DNA from: Clostridiales bacterium
GTDB taxonomy: Bacteria > Bacillota > Clostridia > Peptostreptococcales > Anaerovoracaceae
Assembly (NCBI GenBank): GCA_012513435.1
Contig: JAAZCE010000007.1
Coordinates: 31,894-95,893 of the forward strand
Direction: 5' to 3'
DNA: 64,000 bases
Of the stretch, positions 26,550-35,153 are shown one piece after another; positions within the stretch are counted from its first letter, which is position 1; each line of letters opens with the position of its first letter. The notes below the pieces were generated by a model that saw only the letters and a list, made by a program, of their open reading frames with translations, did no database searches and was not told the DNA's origin. A program made the position numbers and the translations under genes.

Positions 26550-27131
26550 TCAAGATTTCCCGTACCTTTCAAGTACAATCTCCTTAAATTTTTCGCCGGC
26601 ATAGATATATTCTGTCTTACCATTTATCTTCATGGTAAACAGCCAGTTAAAATTTACAGCATGATTAATTTCAAGTGTATGTAAAATTCCATCTCGGATA
26701 AATTCATAAAAACGATAGCCGTCATCAGCAAATCGGCTTTGCGTTGTATTCAGTGTAGCGATAGCACTTTTGTCCGTAAGCTTTTCAAAACAGGTGATTG
26801 GGTTTGCTTCAAACATTTTCTTTAGGGCTTTTGTCATTTGCTTATCCGTCTTATATAATTCAAGCAGATAGTGTGCCATCATATCTCCAACATTTTCTAA
26901 GTCCGCTACCTTTATATCAACTAAAAATAGAGTTAGCTTACTGGCGAAATTCACTACTTGGATACATTTTCTTTTATCAAAATAAAACAGCTTTGCACCC
27001 CATTCAAGAATTTTATCTCCGCTTTCATTCTCAATCACAGCCCCAGCAATCTGATTGATTGGAGGAGTTAATTCATTTGGAAGTTTCAATTTGTATCTTT
27101 CAAAGGTCTGCTTTGTCGCATAAATAATCAT
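26550..27131 (-). CDS. DUF6933-like hypothetical protein
   Basis: 193 aa; MIIYATKQTFERYKLKLPNEL...LTLFLVDIKVADLENVG; family label from memory. Confidence 0.5.
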   Translation of the reverse strand: MIIYATKQTFERYKLKLPNELTPPINQIAGAVIENESGDKILEWGAKLFYFDKRKCIQVVNFASKLTLFLVDIKVADLENVGDMMAHYLLELYKTDKQMTKALKKMFEANPITCFEKLTDKSAIATLNTTQSRFADDGYRFYEFIRDGILHTLEINHAVNFNWLFTMKINGKTEYIYAGEKFKEIVLERYGKS

Positions 27132-27132
27132 A

Positions 27133-27312
27133 ATGTATCACCTTCATCATTCCGCTTCACATATGTCAATTTAATATCATAGCCCAGAGCCTCCAGCATC
27201 TGCACGAAGGTCTTGTTTATCACACCGTCCTGTTTTTTGATGATACGGTTGACATATTGCCCCGTAGTGCTAATCTTCTCGGCAAGCTGTGCCTGCGTGA
27301 CACCTGCTTATG
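27133..27312 (-). pseudogene. XRE-type HTH regulator C-terminal remnant
   Basis: Minus translation AGVTQAQLAEKISTTGQYVNRIIKKQDGVINKTFVQMLEALGYDIKLTYVKRNDEGDT without a start. Confidence 0.65.
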
Positions 27313-27702: not shown

Positions 27703-27864
27703 TTATTCCAGTTCTTCAATGGCATCTTTAAGTTCTTCTAAAGTATCGTAATCATCCACATCTAACCCAAGTTCTTCTGCCCTCTGAGTAAGAGCGTCAT
27801 TTTCCAAATCATTATCAAAACCACCTAAAATTTCAAACCCTATTACTTCATCAAATAAGCTCAT
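27703..27864 (-). CDS. 53-aa acidic hypothetical protein, last gene of the cargo-A operon
   Basis: MSLFDEVIGFEILGGFDNDLENDALTQRAEELGLDVDDYDTLEELKDAIEELE*; starts 19 bp after the stop of the 27884 ORF; not in the supplied ORF track. Confidence 0.6.
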   Translation of the reverse strand: MSLFDEVIGFEILGGFDNDLENDALTQRAEELGLDVDDYDTLEELKDAIEELE

Positions 27865-27883
27865 TTTCGTATCTCCCGCTATA

Positions 27884-28492
27884 TCAAAAATTTGACTTGA
27901 TATTCTCCTCCGCTAGTCTCAACTGAAGTAAATCAAAATTATACTCTTTAATATCGTTGGTTGCTCTCAGTTCATTTATCATTTCTGATAATGTTTTCTT
28001 TCCCTTTGAAATGATAGTATTAATTGCCTTAATTTGAGAAAGAAAAGGCTCTTTGTAGTAATAATGTTCTAGTTTTTCCTTAATATCAATTATAGCCCCT
28101 TTGGGAACTATATCCCAACAGATAATAAGCCATTGTATCGCATTGTATAATTGCTTAGATTCATCATTCCACTGTTTTTTTGGAGTTCCAGTTCCATTAC
28201 AACCAGTTTCATTTCCACTTCCACCAGTTGCTCTTATTGGATCAAACAATGGCATATCTGGTTCGCCCATTAACTCTAAGAAATGCTTTGCTGCACCTGT
28301 ACCACACAAAATTGATTGGACGATTTTATCATCATTTTTAGATGTACATTGGAACACGTAATACTGATCTTTCAACTCGGCTTCAGCATCACTTCTTTTC
28401 GTTTGTCCATTCAATAATCTTGTGTGTGCTATTAATTTTATATCATATTGTTCTGCTATTTTTATTCTAGTGTTTACACCTCTACAATTCAT
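27884..28492 (-). CDS. Hypothetical protein (cargo-A operon)
   Basis: 202 aa, overlaps the upstream HNH gene by 1 bp; no family recognised. Confidence 0.75.
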   Translation of the reverse strand: MNCRGVNTRIKIAEQYDIKLIAHTRLLNGQTKRSDAEAELKDQYYVFQCTSKNDDKIVQSILCGTGAAKHFLELMGEPDMPLFDPIRATGGSGNETGCNGTGTPKKQWNDESKQLYNAIQWLIICWDIVPKGAIIDIKEKLEHYYYKEPFLSQIKAINTIISKGKKTLSEMINELRATNDIKEYNFDLLQLRLAEENIKSNF

Positions 28493-29277
28493 TATATTTT
28501 TACTCCTATCATTTCCTTTACTTCCTCAACACTATAAACCCCTCCAACCTTCGAATGTAAGATCATATGACAGTTTGGGCATACTGGTATCAAATCTGTT
28601 GCAGGATTAACTTCATATGTATCATCAATTTCATTCAATGGTTTAATATGATGAATATGGATTTTGCCTTCAAACTCTTGTCCATAAACTTCTCCAAAAT
28701 CAAAGCCACATATTTTACAAGTAGATCCTTGCAATTTAATGCACTCTTTTCGAGCTTTTTCATTGCGTTCGTAGGCATTTATAGTTATCTGTTTTTTTGC
28801 ACCCTCAATATATTTTTCTGATTCAATAAGACCAAGTTCTTCAGGGATCTGAGATTGCTGTTTTTTATCTATCAGCGTTAGTATATCGTTTATTTGGGAA
28901 TAATCCAGTTTTTGTTTTACTTGTGAAAAGCCTTTAAAAGTACTATCAATGCTTGAAAGTTCTTCTGCAGTTATTGGCTCAAAAACAGAAATGCTATGAA
29001 TATCAAAAACTATTGCTCCCTTATATATTCCATCCTTAGGCACATTAAACTTTTCAGTTCTTAACAATCTAGCACTTGCTATAACTTCACCATCAATTTG
29101 AAAAAGTACAAGAGAACCTTCTGGACAGGTTATGCCCGTATTCCTAAAATAGTAATAACCCTGCTGTTCTTTTATTAAATGATTCAAAAAATACGATTCT
29201 TGTATTTCCTCATATGACATATCTGGGAATTCATATTTCTTGCTCATTGGTAATAATCGCACTTCCTTAAGCATCAT
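28492..29277 (-). CDS. HNH endonuclease with N-terminal PUA/EVE-like domain
   Basis: 261 aa; CKICGFDFGEVYG...IHIHHIKPLNEI...LIPVCPNCHMILHS; N-terminal half YYYFRNTGITCPEGSLVLFQIDGEVIASARLL looks PUA-like. Confidence 0.85.
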   Translation of the reverse strand: MMLKEVRLLPMSKKYEFPDMSYEEIQESYFLNHLIKEQQGYYYFRNTGITCPEGSLVLFQIDGEVIASARLLRTEKFNVPKDGIYKGAIVFDIHSISVFEPITAEELSSIDSTFKGFSQVKQKLDYSQINDILTLIDKKQQSQIPEELGLIESEKYIEGAKKQITINAYERNEKARKECIKLQGSTCKICGFDFGEVYGQEFEGKIHIHHIKPLNEIDDTYEVNPATDLIPVCPNCHMILHSKVGGVYSVEEVKEMIGVKI

Positions 29278-30389
29278 TCATTACTCTCCATAAATTTTCT
29301 AACTAAAATAATACCAATATATTCATCAATTATATTAGATACATGTCTAACATTTTTAAAACCACCTGTCAAACCAAGAAATTTTTCTAATAAAGGTGCA
29401 AAATGAATGATCGTTTTTTCTTTTGCAGTAAGTTTGTCATATTTTTCTCTACATAGCTTCTCTATAATAAGTCCCATCGCTTCTTTTGAGAGTTTTTCAA
29501 ATTTTATAAAACGATCAAATCTATAAAATATGGGATCTCCTAAATATTTCTGTATATCTTCTTCTGACTGATAATTTGAAGTACATATAATAATCGAATT
29601 GAACAATTCTACTCTATAATTTTTATCTTCAAAAACTCCCTCATCAAATAATTGATAGAAAGCACTATGGAAAACAGGTGCAGGTTTATCAAACTCATCT
29701 ATAAGAATTACATTAGATTCTCTTTCAAGTAAATCTCGTGCAAAACTACTTTGCATATGTGTACCACCGAAAAGATAGCTGGCAAACTCCTCACTGTGAA
29801 ACATAGAAAACTGTTTTCGAAACAATTTTTCTCCAATTGTATCACTGATAAATTTAGCAGTTTCAGTTTTTCCTACTCCTGAAATGCCATAAAACATCAA
29901 AACAATAGGCTTTCGTATATGTCTACTCTTTACAAGAGGATATAGTGACATCATAATTCTTTCTCTAGCCTGATCCTGTCCAATAATGTGTTCTGAAAAA
30001 TTCTTATACATATCTATAAATTTCTTTTCCGATATTGGCTTATATTTATATTTTTCAATTTTTATTTTATCTGGAAATGCTTGCTGTACCTGATGTAATA
30101 TAGGGATTGTTGGATTTTGTAAATACAAATTGTCAATATCATAACGGCTTAATAAACTAACAAAACTTTGTATTGCACCTTCAGTTATTCCTGCATATGC
30201 TTCTGAATATGCAACTAAATTTTCCACATATTCCAACTCTTCAATTTGATTAGTTTCATCCGTAGTTACCAAAATTTTATTTCTTTTCTGATCTCCTTCA
30301 GTAACGATTTCAGTTAACGTTCTATAATGATTTGGTAATATCTTTTTTAGTCCTTTTTTTGGTCCAAAATATATAATAATATTTTTCAT
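29274..30389 (-). CDS. AAA+ ATPase (Clp/torsin-type)
   Basis: 371 aa; IIGQDQARERIMMSLYPL, Walker A GISGVGKTETAKF, Walker B NVILIDEFDKP, sensor ICTSN; 4-bp overlap with neighbours. Confidence 0.88.
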   Translation of the reverse strand: MKNIIIYFGPKKGLKKILPNHYRTLTEIVTEGDQKRNKILVTTDETNQIEELEYVENLVAYSEAYAGITEGAIQSFVSLLSRYDIDNLYLQNPTIPILHQVQQAFPDKIKIEKYKYKPISEKKFIDMYKNFSEHIIGQDQARERIMMSLYPLVKSRHIRKPIVLMFYGISGVGKTETAKFISDTIGEKLFRKQFSMFHSEEFASYLFGGTHMQSSFARDLLERESNVILIDEFDKPAPVFHSAFYQLFDEGVFEDKNYRVELFNSIIICTSNYQSEEDIQKYLGDPIFYRFDRFIKFEKLSKEAMGLIIEKLCREKYDKLTAKEKTIIHFAPLLEKFLGLTGGFKNVRHVSNIIDEYIGIILVRKFMESNE

Positions 30390-31117
30390 GCTTCTACACC
30401 TGCTAAAACCACATCAAAAACATCTAGATGATTGCCAACATCATTTCCGTCAATTATTTCAAATGCAGATGATATAACTTTTTCTTCCATCGAAAATTCT
30501 TTTCCAATATCAAGCAGATATTCTTCCGTAGTACCAACTTTTACAGCAAAATACTTCAAATCCATTTTTGATATATCTGCTATACCGTAGTTATTTCTAA
30601 ATGCACCAATATTAAATCGAAGTACACACTGCTTCTTTGAATTTTCAGCAATCATTTCATAGTATTTTTTTCCATTTTTAAAGGCATCATCTAGTTTTGA
30701 TACGTCCAGACAGAAGCCTTCTTCAATCTCAATCTCTGCTTTTGTCATAACAAGAAAAGGTGTAAACATTTTAAAAAATGCAATTGAATTTTTAGGTGGT
30801 CTAACAAAAACATTTTCTATTTTTTCAATTCTTTCATCTAATTTTGCTTTTTCTAGATAATCTGTTAATACGGTGTTCGATAAAGTTGTCTTAAATATAG
30901 AGTCATTTTTTTGTGCAAAATCAGCATCGATATTTCCACTTACGCTACCACCTGCAAAAATCCAATTCATTTTCGCAAATAAATTAATATTAGCTTTTTC
31001 TGCCAAAGCCTTTGTATTTTCCTTAATTTTCTCTTTCTGTTGGACTTCTTCTCCGCCGTTATATATATTTAAATAATCTGTCGCTGACAATTCATCAAAA
31101 TACACTACTTTTATCAT
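30386..31117 (-). CDS. DUF6414-like protein (cargo-A operon)
   Basis: 243 aa; MIKVVYFDELSATDYLNIYNGGEE; family label from memory. Confidence 0.55.
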   Translation of the reverse strand: MIKVVYFDELSATDYLNIYNGGEEVQQKEKIKENTKALAEKANINLFAKMNWIFAGGSVSGNIDADFAQKNDSIFKTTLSNTVLTDYLEKAKLDERIEKIENVFVRPPKNSIAFFKMFTPFLVMTKAEIEIEEGFCLDVSKLDDAFKNGKKYYEMIAENSKKQCVLRFNIGAFRNNYGIADISKMDLKYFAVKVGTTEEYLLDIGKEFSMEEKVISSAFEIIDGNDVGNHLDVFDVVLAGVEA

Positions 31118-31123
31118 TGTATT

Positions 31124-31363
31124 CTAACATCCTTTCCTATACCTCTGCTGTCCCGACGAGGTCTTTTCTATTGGTATAATCTTATCCTCACCAGAGTTAT
31201 TCACCCAGTGCAGAAACAGGATGCCAAGAAGCAACCTGCTTCTTCTGTCAAGGCGATTCCATTCGTATCCTTTGAATAGATCTCTTACTAGAAATATCTC
31301 ATCTGCATGCACGTTTTCTATTTCCTCTATGGCTAACTGTAATAATTCTTCAACTGTTTTCAT
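31124..31363 (-). CDS. DUF1413-like small protein, first gene of the cargo-A operon
   Basis: 79 aa; DEIFLVRDLFKGYEWNRLDRRSRLLLGILFLHWVNN...KTSSGQQRYRK. Confidence 0.75.
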   Translation of the reverse strand: MKTVEELLQLAIEEIENVHADEIFLVRDLFKGYEWNRLDRRSRLLLGILFLHWVNNSGEDKIIPIEKTSSGQQRYRKGC

Positions 31364-31377
31364 TTCTTCGCTCCTAT

Positions 31378-31435
31378 GTTGTTACTATAACAACGTTGTT
31401 TATATCATTATACCTTTTATATGTAAATATTTCAA
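31378..31435 (-). promoter_or_regulatory. Sigma-A-type promoter with overlapping operator-like palindromes for the cargo-A operon
   Basis: Minus strand TTGAAA (31435-31430) - 17 bp - TATAAT (31412-31407), then AACAACGTTGTT (31389-31400) and GTTGTTA-TAG-TAACAAC (31378-31394) before the ATG. Confidence 0.75.
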
Positions 31436-31445
31436 TCATAAACGA

Positions 31446-31489
31446 CAAAAAACCGCCAACCGAGATATTTCACTATCCCAGTTGGCGGT
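31446..31489 (-). terminator. Terminator downstream of the serine-recombinase operon
   Basis: accgccaac...gttggcggt 9-bp perfect stem, U run on the minus strand. Confidence 0.85.
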
Positions 31490-31499
31490 ATGTATTTTG

Positions 31500-33104
31500 T
31501 TATTGCTTTTTCCACTCTATATCAAGCTCCAGTCCACTTTTAAAAGTAATGTGAAGCAGGTCATTGTTTACTAATATTTTTTCAACAAGCAGGCGAACTA
31601 GCTTATCGTCATAGTCATTGATTGTGGTTTCTTGCACCTGCAGGAATGCTGTCATTTCACCAATTCGTGTACGTTGACACTGTCTCTTAGTATTTTGCTG
31701 TTCAATATTTTGTTTTTTAGTCCGTAGATCATTGATGCTATCAGCAAGCTCCTCATATTTTTTGTCATACTTGGTGCTGTTTACTCCGTCTCTTGCATTC
31801 ATTTTTGCATAGTTCAGCATTTCATTTTGCAGGCTATCTAGTTTCTCATCTATGGAATCAGTATTGCTATCATTCGTGGCATTAAGTACGGTGTTAATAT
31901 TATTTTCCAAGGTTTGTATAAATCCATCTTTACAAGTAATTATCTGATTTATAGCTATTATTACTACATCTTGTAACTCTTTTTCTAAAATGGTAGGTGC
32001 TTGGCACTTTATCGTTTTATCCTCAAGTCTGCTCACACATCTCCACACAACGCTTTTCTTCCCTCTATTATTCCAGTGTACCCTGCGATATATTTCTCCA
32101 CATTCTCCGCAATATACAATGCTTGAAAGAGCAAACTTGGAACTATATATTTGCTTTTTACCGTTGGTGCTACGTTTTAAATTACTACGCCTTTTTATTT
32201 CTTCTTGCACTTCAAAGTACAGTTCTTTGGGAATAATAGCCTCATGGTTATTTTCTACGTAATACTGTGGAACAATCCCATTATTAATCACCCTCTTCTT
32301 TGTAAGAAAATCCACTGTGTAGGTCTTTTGGAGCAAAGCATCGCCCATAAACTTTTCATTCATTAATAATTTTTTTACACTCTCTGGTCTCCACTTGACT
32401 TTACCTGCAGCAGTTAAAATATGATCAGCTTCAAGTCCTCGGCATATAGATAAGAGGCTTGCTCCCTCAAGATATTCTCGAAAAATACGTTTCACAACTT
32501 CTGCCTGCACTGGATCAATAATTAAGTGACCATTCTCATCTTTGGTATATCCTAAAAAACGATTGTGGTTTACTTGGACTTCTCCATTTTGGTAGCGGTA
32601 GGCAATGCCCATCTTTACATTTTGGCTAAGAGAACGAGATTCTTCCTGTGCAAGTGAACTCATAATGGTAAGTAAGATTTCTCCCTTGCTGTCCATAGTA
32701 TTAATGTTCTCTTTTTCAAAATATACAGGTATGCCTTTGTCTTTTAACTGACGTATATATTTTAGGCAGTCCAGTGTATTTCTTGCAAATCGGCTGATTG
32801 ATTTTGTAATAATCATATCAACTTTACCTGCCATGCAATCGTCAATCATATTGTTGAATTCAATTCGCTTCTTGGTATTAGTGGCTGAAATACCTGAATC
32901 CGCATATATTTTAACCATCTCCCACTCGGGATTTTTATTAATGTACTCGGTATAATGACTTACCTGTGCATCGTAGCTTAAAAGCTGTTCTTCGCTATCT
33001 GTAGAAACCCTGCAGTAGGCACAAACCCGCATTTTCTTAACCACTTCATTAACTGGCTGAAATCTTGATCTTGCAGGGATAACCGATACATTTTTACTTG
33101 CCAT
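31500..33104 (-). CDS. Large serine recombinase
   Basis: 534 aa; [42 protein letters not shown], zinc ribbon [13 protein letters not shown]. Confidence 0.96.
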
Positions 33105-33579
33105 CTACGCTCATCTCCTCTCCTATGATTGCAGAATATATGGCTTCAGCACGTTTCAATAGTAATACCTGCAAATCATCTTTATTTGTAGTAATAGCTA
33201 CTTTCTGCGCTATATTATCTGCCTCTTGTGAACTATCTAATGTATATTTTATGGGCTTTAGCGATGGAATTGGCTTTGTTAAATTCTTTCTGCCAAACTT
33301 TATCATCCTGCGTTCACGTTCCTTAGCTACACTTTTAAATTGCTCAACTGTTACAATGGCAGGATAGAAATCATCTCCAACATAATGGGTGCATTCCAAC
33401 AATCTACTAATGGCAGAATGAGTTTTCTTTATCCCTGCGGTTTTTGCCGAGGTTTGAAAAGAAGCTCCTGATAGATATTCAGAATATAAGATTCTCAATT
33501 TTTCTGCTTCTATTTGGTTAATAACTGCTTTTCCATGAACTATCTCATATCCATAAGGAGTATGGTTCATTCCCTTCAC
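33094..33579 (-). CDS. Recombinase-domain-only protein (no resolvase catalytic domain)
   Basis: 161 aa; [34 protein letters not shown]; translationally coupled between two full-length recombinases. Confidence 0.88.
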
Positions 33580-35153
33580 CTCTCAATCGTTTCTTTTAAA
33601 CACAAACTACTTTTTAGCTGAAATCCAATCTCTGTTTTAGAAAATACAATAATTTTATCTACCAATTTTGCAAATAAATCCTCGTCAAATTGTTTTGGAA
33701 TACTTTCTGTCTTTTTTAAGTAATGCAATAGTTTTTCAGTTTCAACTATAATTTTGCGGTCACCCTCGGAGCAATCAATTACAGCTTGTTTTTCTATTTT
33801 TAAGTTTTCAAGTTCAGTTTGCAAGATGCCCTTTTGCTCCATAAAAAGAGCAGGTTCAAGGTAACCTTTAGACATCAGTCCTGTGATTACTTGCTCCTGC
33901 TCATGAAGTTCTGTTATTTGTTTATTAAGTTCCTGTATTCTTGCTACTCCGCCATCACTGTCAAGTTTTTTTAATTCCTCCAGCAATGGAATTAATATTT
34001 GGTTATGATAAAGCCGTAACTTCGTTAGCATAATCATAAAGGCATTTTTAACATGCTCTTCTTTTATTAATAACATATGGCAAGCTTCCTTATTTTCAAT
34101 ATGGGTGGCACAGCTCCAAGCTATATACTTTTCATTTCTGTTTTTAGTACATATTTTTCTTTTAAAATGACTGCCACACTCATTGCAAACAATTCTGCTT
34201 GTAAATAAATATCGCTTTTGATACTTTTCTCTTTCACCAAAGTTTCCTTTTTCCTTAGCACGCTGAATCACTAATTTTTGTACTGCTTCAAAGTCTGTAT
34301 TTGAAATAATGGCTTCATGACAATTTTCCATATAATACTGATCTTGCTCACCATAATTAATATGCCTATTAAAATTATCATCTGTGTAAGTTTTTTGAAG
34401 TAGCACATTTCCTGTTACCTTTTCGTTTCTAAGTATGCCACGTATGGTTGTAGAGCACCATCTCCCATTTCTCTGTGTTGGTATACCATCAGCATTTAAT
34501 CCTCTAGCAATCTCAGCTGTACCACTTCCGCTTAGAGCCTCTGAAAAAATACGCTTAACAATTTGGGACTGTTCTTTGTTTGGAACTAATATTTCACCGT
34601 TCCAATCATAACCATAGGGCGGACTTGCTAATTTGTAAGTCCCGTTTTTAAACCTATTTTCTATGCTCCACTTATTGTTTTTCGAGATGGAAGTAGATTC
34701 ACTGGAAGCTAAAACACTGAGTATGGATAACATAAGCTCGCTATCAGTGGTTAGCGTATTAATATTTTCTTTTTCAAATAATACACCAATGCCAAGCTCT
34801 GTAAATCTACGAATGATCTCTAAACAATCAGTGGTGTTTCGTGCAAATCGGCTAATGGATTTGGTAATAATAAAGTCTATTTTCCTAGCTTCACAGTCTG
34901 CTAACATTTGCAAAAACTCAGGTCTAATTTCCTTTTTTGTACCACTGATTCCGCTATCAGAATATATTCCAACAAACTCCCAATCGGGGTTACTTGAAAT
35001 AAAATCTGTATAATGCAGCACCTGTGCATCAAAACTGTTTAACTGCTCATCGCTGTCAGTGGAAACTCTCACATAGCAGGCAGTCCTAATCTTGCGATTG
35101 GGCAACTTAGCACTTGCTACATCAATTTTAGTAACCTTCTTCATACAAAACAC
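33576..35153 (-). CDS. Large serine recombinase
   Basis: 525 aa; [55 protein letters not shown]. Confidence 0.96.
   Translation of the reverse strand: MFCMKKVTKIDVASAKLPNRKIRTACYVRVSTDSDEQLNSFDAQVLHYTDFISSNPDWEFVGIYSDSGISGTKKEIRPEFLQMLADCEARKIDFIITKSISRFARNTTDCLEIIRRFTELGIGVLFEKENINTLTTDSELMLSILSVLASSESTSISKNNKWSIENRFKNGTYKLASPPYGYDWNGEILVPNKEQSQIVKRIFSEALSGSGTAEIARGLNADGIPTQRNGRWCSTTIRGILRNEKVTGNVLLQKTYTDDNFNRHINYGEQDQYYMENCHEAIISNTDFEAVQKLVIQRAKEKGNFGEREKYQKRYLFTSRIVCNECGSHFKRKICTKNRNEKYIAWSCATHIENKEACHMLLIKEEHVKNAFMIMLTKLRLYHNQILIPLLEELKKLDSDGGVARIQELNKQITELHEQEQVITGLMSKGYLEPALFMEQKGILQTELENLKIEKQAVIDCSEGDRKIIVETEKLLHYLKKTESIPKQFDEDLFAKLVDKIIVFSKTEIGFQLKSSLCLKETIER

Follow-up and report, generated by a model that had tools for sequence, protein, structure and literature searches.

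A Dodola-based mosaic operon in a probable recurrent site for cargo next to large serine recombinases, with a putatively autoregulated DUF1413 head gene

Does a tightly packed operon of six genes, lodged beside serine recombinases in the genome of a Clostridiales bacterium, form one new defense system, or is it an assembly of separable parts? The operon occupies positions 27703-31363, on the minus strand, of the 64,000-nucleotide stretch analyzed here (the window; GenBank assembly GCA_012513435.1, contig JAAZCE010000007.1), and an earlier reading of the letters alone (the sequence-only reading) had put it forward as a candidate undescribed defense system acting as a unit. We favor, as the probable explanation, a Dodola-based mosaic that sits in a recurrent, exchangeable cargo site, adjacent to large serine recombinases and headed by an autoregulated DUF1413 gene.

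All six open reading frames (ORFs) are present, and their spacing is that of an operon. The DUF1413 gene (31124-31363) is separated by a gap of 6 base pairs (bp) from DolA (30386-31117), which overlaps DolB (29274-30389) by 4 bp; DolB in turn overlaps the HNH gene (28492-29277) by 4 bp, and the latter overlaps a gene for a 202-residue protein (27884-28492) by 1 bp, with an ORF of 53 codons (27703-27864) following after 19 bp. Upstream lies a promoter of the form TTGAAA-17-TATAAT (31407-31435, minus strand), which matches the consensus at 11 of 12 positions and surpasses every other promoter-like site in the region, and a terminator-like hairpin with a 16-pair stem and a T-run (31452-31489, minus strand) marks the boundary between recombinase and cargo. 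The predicted operon, its promoter and its isolating terminator are thereby confirmed. Since the totals of promoter-like and terminator-like sites in the region do not exceed those of shuffled sequences, these two sites count for their position. Profile searches also upheld the domain calls made for the first four proteins, namely DUF1413 (Pfam PF07205, 1e-18), DUF6414 (3e-23), Clp/torsin-type AAA+ and HNH.

By profile match and gene order, the second and third genes are DolA and DolB of Dodola, a catalogued two-gene anti-phage system that protects as a DolA-DolB pair (PMC11514479, PMC12322248). Both computed matches run over the full length (PADLOC DolA, 7e-69; PADLOC DolB, 4e-133), and DolB lies directly downstream of DolA with the short overlap, the arrangement of Dodola. 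Both Walker motifs of the ATPase, A (GISGVGKT) and B (LIDEFD), are intact, as had been predicted, and it keeps all Walker core residues that are invariant in an alignment of 14 DolB proteins; likewise, the window DolA keeps every residue of the set that is invariant among 13 DolA proteins. A profile search of the Protein Data Bank (PDB) with DolA gave no match. The pair at the heart of the operon is therefore a catalogued system, and the claim of an undescribed one falls.

The first gene of the operon leads to a different kind of finding. On the viral contig L064, a DUF1413 gene likewise precedes DolA, with a similar palindrome upstream in both cases, and the cargo there consists of DolAB followed by GajA. 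More than 30 DUF1413 loci were collected from 216 genomes of the class and from viral contigs. In the viral-contig sample, where contigs with integrases are over-represented, 20 of 21 loci show a large serine recombinase match in the 2 kb upstream of DUF1413 and oriented like it, mostly at a distance of 136-213 bp (136 bp in the window); among genomes with sufficient upstream sequence, a recombinase is found near DUF1413 in some only. What follows DUF1413 varies from locus to locus: QatA (L120), PDC-S15/FRG (L118), PDC-M46A (L122, L139), a DrmMII-like methyltransferase (L123), an MBL protein matching LmuA/RTasMBL (L130), MzaB (L138), GmrSD (L141), ABC-3C CTD6 (L134) and a nucleotidyltransferase (L147). 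An ant(6)-sat4-aph(3') aminoglycoside-resistance cluster occupies the position in Enterococcus faecium, and cadmium-type and two-component/ABC genes were recognized behind DUF1413 by eye. Judged from these gene orders, DUF1413 marks a recurring cargo site, a point that the sequence-only reading had missed. To our knowledge, DUF1413 has not been described as the head gene of a cargo. At one further locus (L126, 1628-3907, reverse), a single open frame spans DUF1413 and a GajA-like protein and is followed by GajB; this may be a natural DUF1413-Gabija fusion or may reflect a lost stop codon.

The regulatory part of the proposal rests on the DNA in front of the gene. The window carries an operator-like sequence at 31378-31400 (minus strand), a perfect palindrome, with AACAACGTTGTT (31389-31400) overlapping GTTGTTATAGTAACAAC (31378-31394). 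Across loci, the promoter layout recurs before DUF1413 genes: mostly a TTGACT-like box, a spacer of 16-17 bp, TATAAT, then 6-9 bp, and then AACAAYGTTGTT, which is placed between the -10 box and the start codon, 5' of the Shine-Dalgarno sequence. With at most one mismatch, this motif is present in 18 of 23 non-redundant DUF1413 upstream regions; 500 dinucleotide-shuffled sets yielded 0.03 on average and never more than 1, a comparison flattered by the choice of the motif after viewing some of the tested promoters. Less bound to that choice is a test of constraint, in which mean pairwise identity was 0.905 for the motif and 0.846 for the -10 box, as opposed to 0.365 for the promoter spacer and 0.479 for third codon positions of DUF1413; the motif is therefore constrained, and shared descent alone is insufficient to account for it. 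It was found before 1 of 182 other ORFs (at least 100 residues) of the same loci and, in its exact form, once in the window, at the DUF1413 promoter (31389-31400). Three DUF1413 genes without a visible recombinase (L122, L125, L127) have the motif upstream as well.

The protein itself, of 79 residues, is confidently modeled by AlphaFold as a winged helix (mean predicted local distance difference test, pLDDT, 91.5), and this predicted fold, together with the palindrome, suggests a head-gene regulator that would bind DNA. Based on these results, we propose the following scheme. From the recombinase stop codon onward, the site would be ordered as terminator, sigma-70 promoter, AACAAYGTTGTT over the transcription start, DUF1413 gene and captured cargo. 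Binding of the DUF1413 winged-helix protein to the palindrome would repress its own promoter, such that costly cargo would be expressed little as long as the repression is not relieved by DNA damage, excision or infection. Once expressed, DolB, probably as an AAA+ hexamer, would remodel a phage target with DolA as its sensor or adaptor, and the HNH nuclease, made from the shared transcript, could contribute DNA cleavage either independently or in cooperation; judging from its genes, the window operon may serve in phage defense. More generally, DUF1413 could be an autorepressor dedicated to an exchangeable site of cargo expression next to large serine recombinases in Bacillota elements, with unrelated defense and resistance cargo captured behind one conserved promoter-operator-regulator head and so placed under common control; in our estimation this is as likely as not.

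Several observations weigh against this proposal. Besides the bias of the viral-contig sample, 5 of the 23 promoters are without a close match to the motif; one locus (L120) bears a perfect 13-bp palindrome of its own, and another (L132) is interrupted upstream. In places, transporters and response regulators stand directly after DUF1413, and the site is therefore not one for defense alone.

An alternative reading would make DUF1413 a single-stranded DNA (ssDNA)-binding accessory of the mobile element, with the palindrome serving a phage repressor, a recombinase, or replication or recombination. Its appeal lies in the best PDB match of the window model, 6BTC, which is LP1413 of SCCmec (E 4e-4; template modeling, TM, score 0.7): no regulatory role has been reported for this ssDNA-binding protein (PMC6851490), which makes an accessory function the main rival to that of a regulator. 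In Clostridium difficile R20291, moreover, a DUF1413 ORF is located within an invertible segment adjoining a recombinase (PMC5903667). However, the identity between the window protein and LP1413 is only 16-17% (16% in the structural match), and a domain search found no helicase gene in the window operon, which thus offers no partner of the SCCmec Cch type. The location of the palindrome between the -10 box and the Shine-Dalgarno sequence, even where no recombinase is seen, also fits an accessory role poorly. We consider such a role rather unlikely, and retain the autoregulated head gene as the preferred reading.

How, then, do the genes downstream of Dodola relate to it? DolAB could be a core that takes exchangeable effectors, with the HNH nuclease as the effector of an extended Dodola in this operon. 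About two dozen more DolAB loci, obtained from a scan of the collection, from genome searches and from plasmids, bear on this question. Several unrelated genomes place DolAB flush (overlapping or within 20 bp) with other defense proteins: Cap15 and SEFIR/TIR (L004), TIR (L056), Schlafen-AlbA_2 (L065), and a type III restriction enzyme together with PDC-S06 or GajA (L002, L003). The roughly one half of independent loci that are bare DolAB pairs, the membership of several of the neighbors in complete known systems, and the sufficiency of two genes for protection all speak against a swap of effectors, which we accordingly regard as unlikely, and a mosaic built on a self-sufficient Dodola pair remains our preference. 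The varied genes flush with DolAB nevertheless offer a way to ask how Dodola works.

Two of these arrangements are recorded here in their own right. A Rathayibacter operon (L004, 4693-9057) encodes, with overlaps or gaps of at most 19 bp, a CD-NTase, a Cap15-type 2TM effector, DolA, DolB and SEFIR/TIR, so that Dodola is nested inside a CBASS-like operon; this is a single instance. At five actinobacterial loci (L002, L003, L005, L006, L009), DolAB has overlapping neighbors on both sides: the type III restriction enzyme gene at DolA and, at DolB, an 870-residue PDC-S06 ATPase or, in L003, GajA.

Within the stretches read, none of the other DolAB loci carries the HNH gene or the 202-residue gene. 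The relatives of these two genes sit apart from DolAB and the 53-residue ORF has no homologue among the loci fetched; for these reasons the cargo is, on gene content, a mosaic of a Dodola module to which the HNH gene, the 202-residue gene and the small ORF are appended. The HNH domain is McrA-like by profile (Pfam HNH, 2e-5), with EcoKMcrA as its closest solved structure (6GHC, 4e-4 over the HNH part), in agreement with the sequence-only reading, and the metal-site cysteine and catalytic histidine motifs CxxC, HHI and CPNCH are present in the alignments. Its N-terminal 140 residues, which the sequence-only reading likened to a PUA/EVE-type reader of modified bases and which stay a candidate for one, are conserved among a few relatives. 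They gave no Pfam EVE/PUA match, no significant hhalign alignment with two EVE proteins, repeat-protein artefacts alone in a PDB profile search, and no relative carrying this domain in a viral-contig search. A full-length relative with 51% identity occurs in another neighborhood without DolAB, and a relative sharing the N-terminus lies downstream of a methyltransferase-like gene and a 214-residue gene.

The 202-residue protein belongs to a family of lone genes of mobile elements and prophages. Its homologues, 25-44% identical, occur singly on plasmids of Staphylococcus, Vibrio and Lysinibacillus and in prophages of E. coli. In the prophages, as in E. coli FDAARGOS_943 (L095, 6001-6690), the lone gene is in opposite orientation, with a DNA polymerase gene on one side and an Nmad5 gene on the other; it was seen in 27 of 5426 genomes. 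The structural model (pLDDT 61.5) returned no significant match among PDB or viral structures. The 53-residue product is acidic and was found in the window alone. Weak matches of these two proteins to Cas6 and ubiquitin were treated as chance. The view that all six genes form one new defense system, for which their co-orientation and tight overlaps are the argument, is highly improbable, given that the set was seen nowhere else in the neighborhood search, that the HNH and 202-residue relatives occur in other settings, and that DolAB is already catalogued.

As regards the surroundings, the cargo has three serine recombinase ORFs (31500-35153) on one side and a truncated XRE-like gene on the other. 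The nearest recombinase, of 534 residues (31500-33104, minus strand), has Resolvase, Recombinase and zinc-ribbon domains and is the one that ends next to DUF1413; a second large serine recombinase of 525 residues was identified by domain search (33576-35153, minus strand), and between these two full-length proteins sits a 161-residue partial recombinase-domain protein with a weak Recombinase match (33094-33579, minus strand). Beyond them, amidase-like and holin-like genes, recognized by eye, and further ORFs in the same orientation give the element a prophage-like character. At the opposite end, the minus-strand stretch 27128-27303 was read directly as the 3' portion of an XRE-like gene of the host, likely split by integration; it shares 4 bp with a DUF6933 gene (weak PADLOC PDC-S63 match), and the two lie within 26550-27303. 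This pair probably represents host genes split by the element, and would fit an integration point. The placement of defense cargo between the recombinases and this point, as first described, holds; a search of 80 relatives gave no homologue of the XRE-like gene, and the att site therefore stays a candidate only.

The claim of a new six-gene system thus gives way to a new and testable pattern of cargo sites, which is the main gain of this analysis. If the pattern is true, the DUF1413 head and its palindrome would provide a handle for finding new defense and resistance cargo in Bacillota elements, and DUF1413 would join the WYL regulators, to which it is unrelated, as a second protein family in control of diverse defense systems.

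Comparison with known systems places each part of the operon. With respect to Dodola, both proteins are complete, in the same order and with the 4-bp overlap, whereas the published system has two genes and the window adds DUF1413 before them and three ORFs after. The nuclease shares its HNH domain with EcoKMcrA and the Type IV HNH restriction enzymes, but its N-terminal domain is not recognizable as that of McrA. DUF1413 and SCCmec LP1413 have in common the Pfam family, the winged-helix fold and the carriage by elements with large serine recombinases; LP1413, however, is an ssDNA-binding protein encoded at the head of the cch helicase operon, whereas the window gene heads variable cargo behind a palindromic promoter site. 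Prophage and satellite hotspots likewise hold variable defense genes at a fixed position of an element, and the DUF1413 site differs from them in having a conserved head gene and promoter/operator before the variable part. The nearest functional parallel is found in the WYL regulators BrxR/CapW, small DNA-binding proteins that lead diverse defense operons with inverted repeats in the promoter (PMC9122601). DUF1413 resembles them as a small operon-leading protein and predicted DNA binder; unlike them, it is unrelated in family, has no WYL ligand domain (the domain search found DUF1413 alone), lies adjacent to recombinases, and heads cargo that includes resistance genes.
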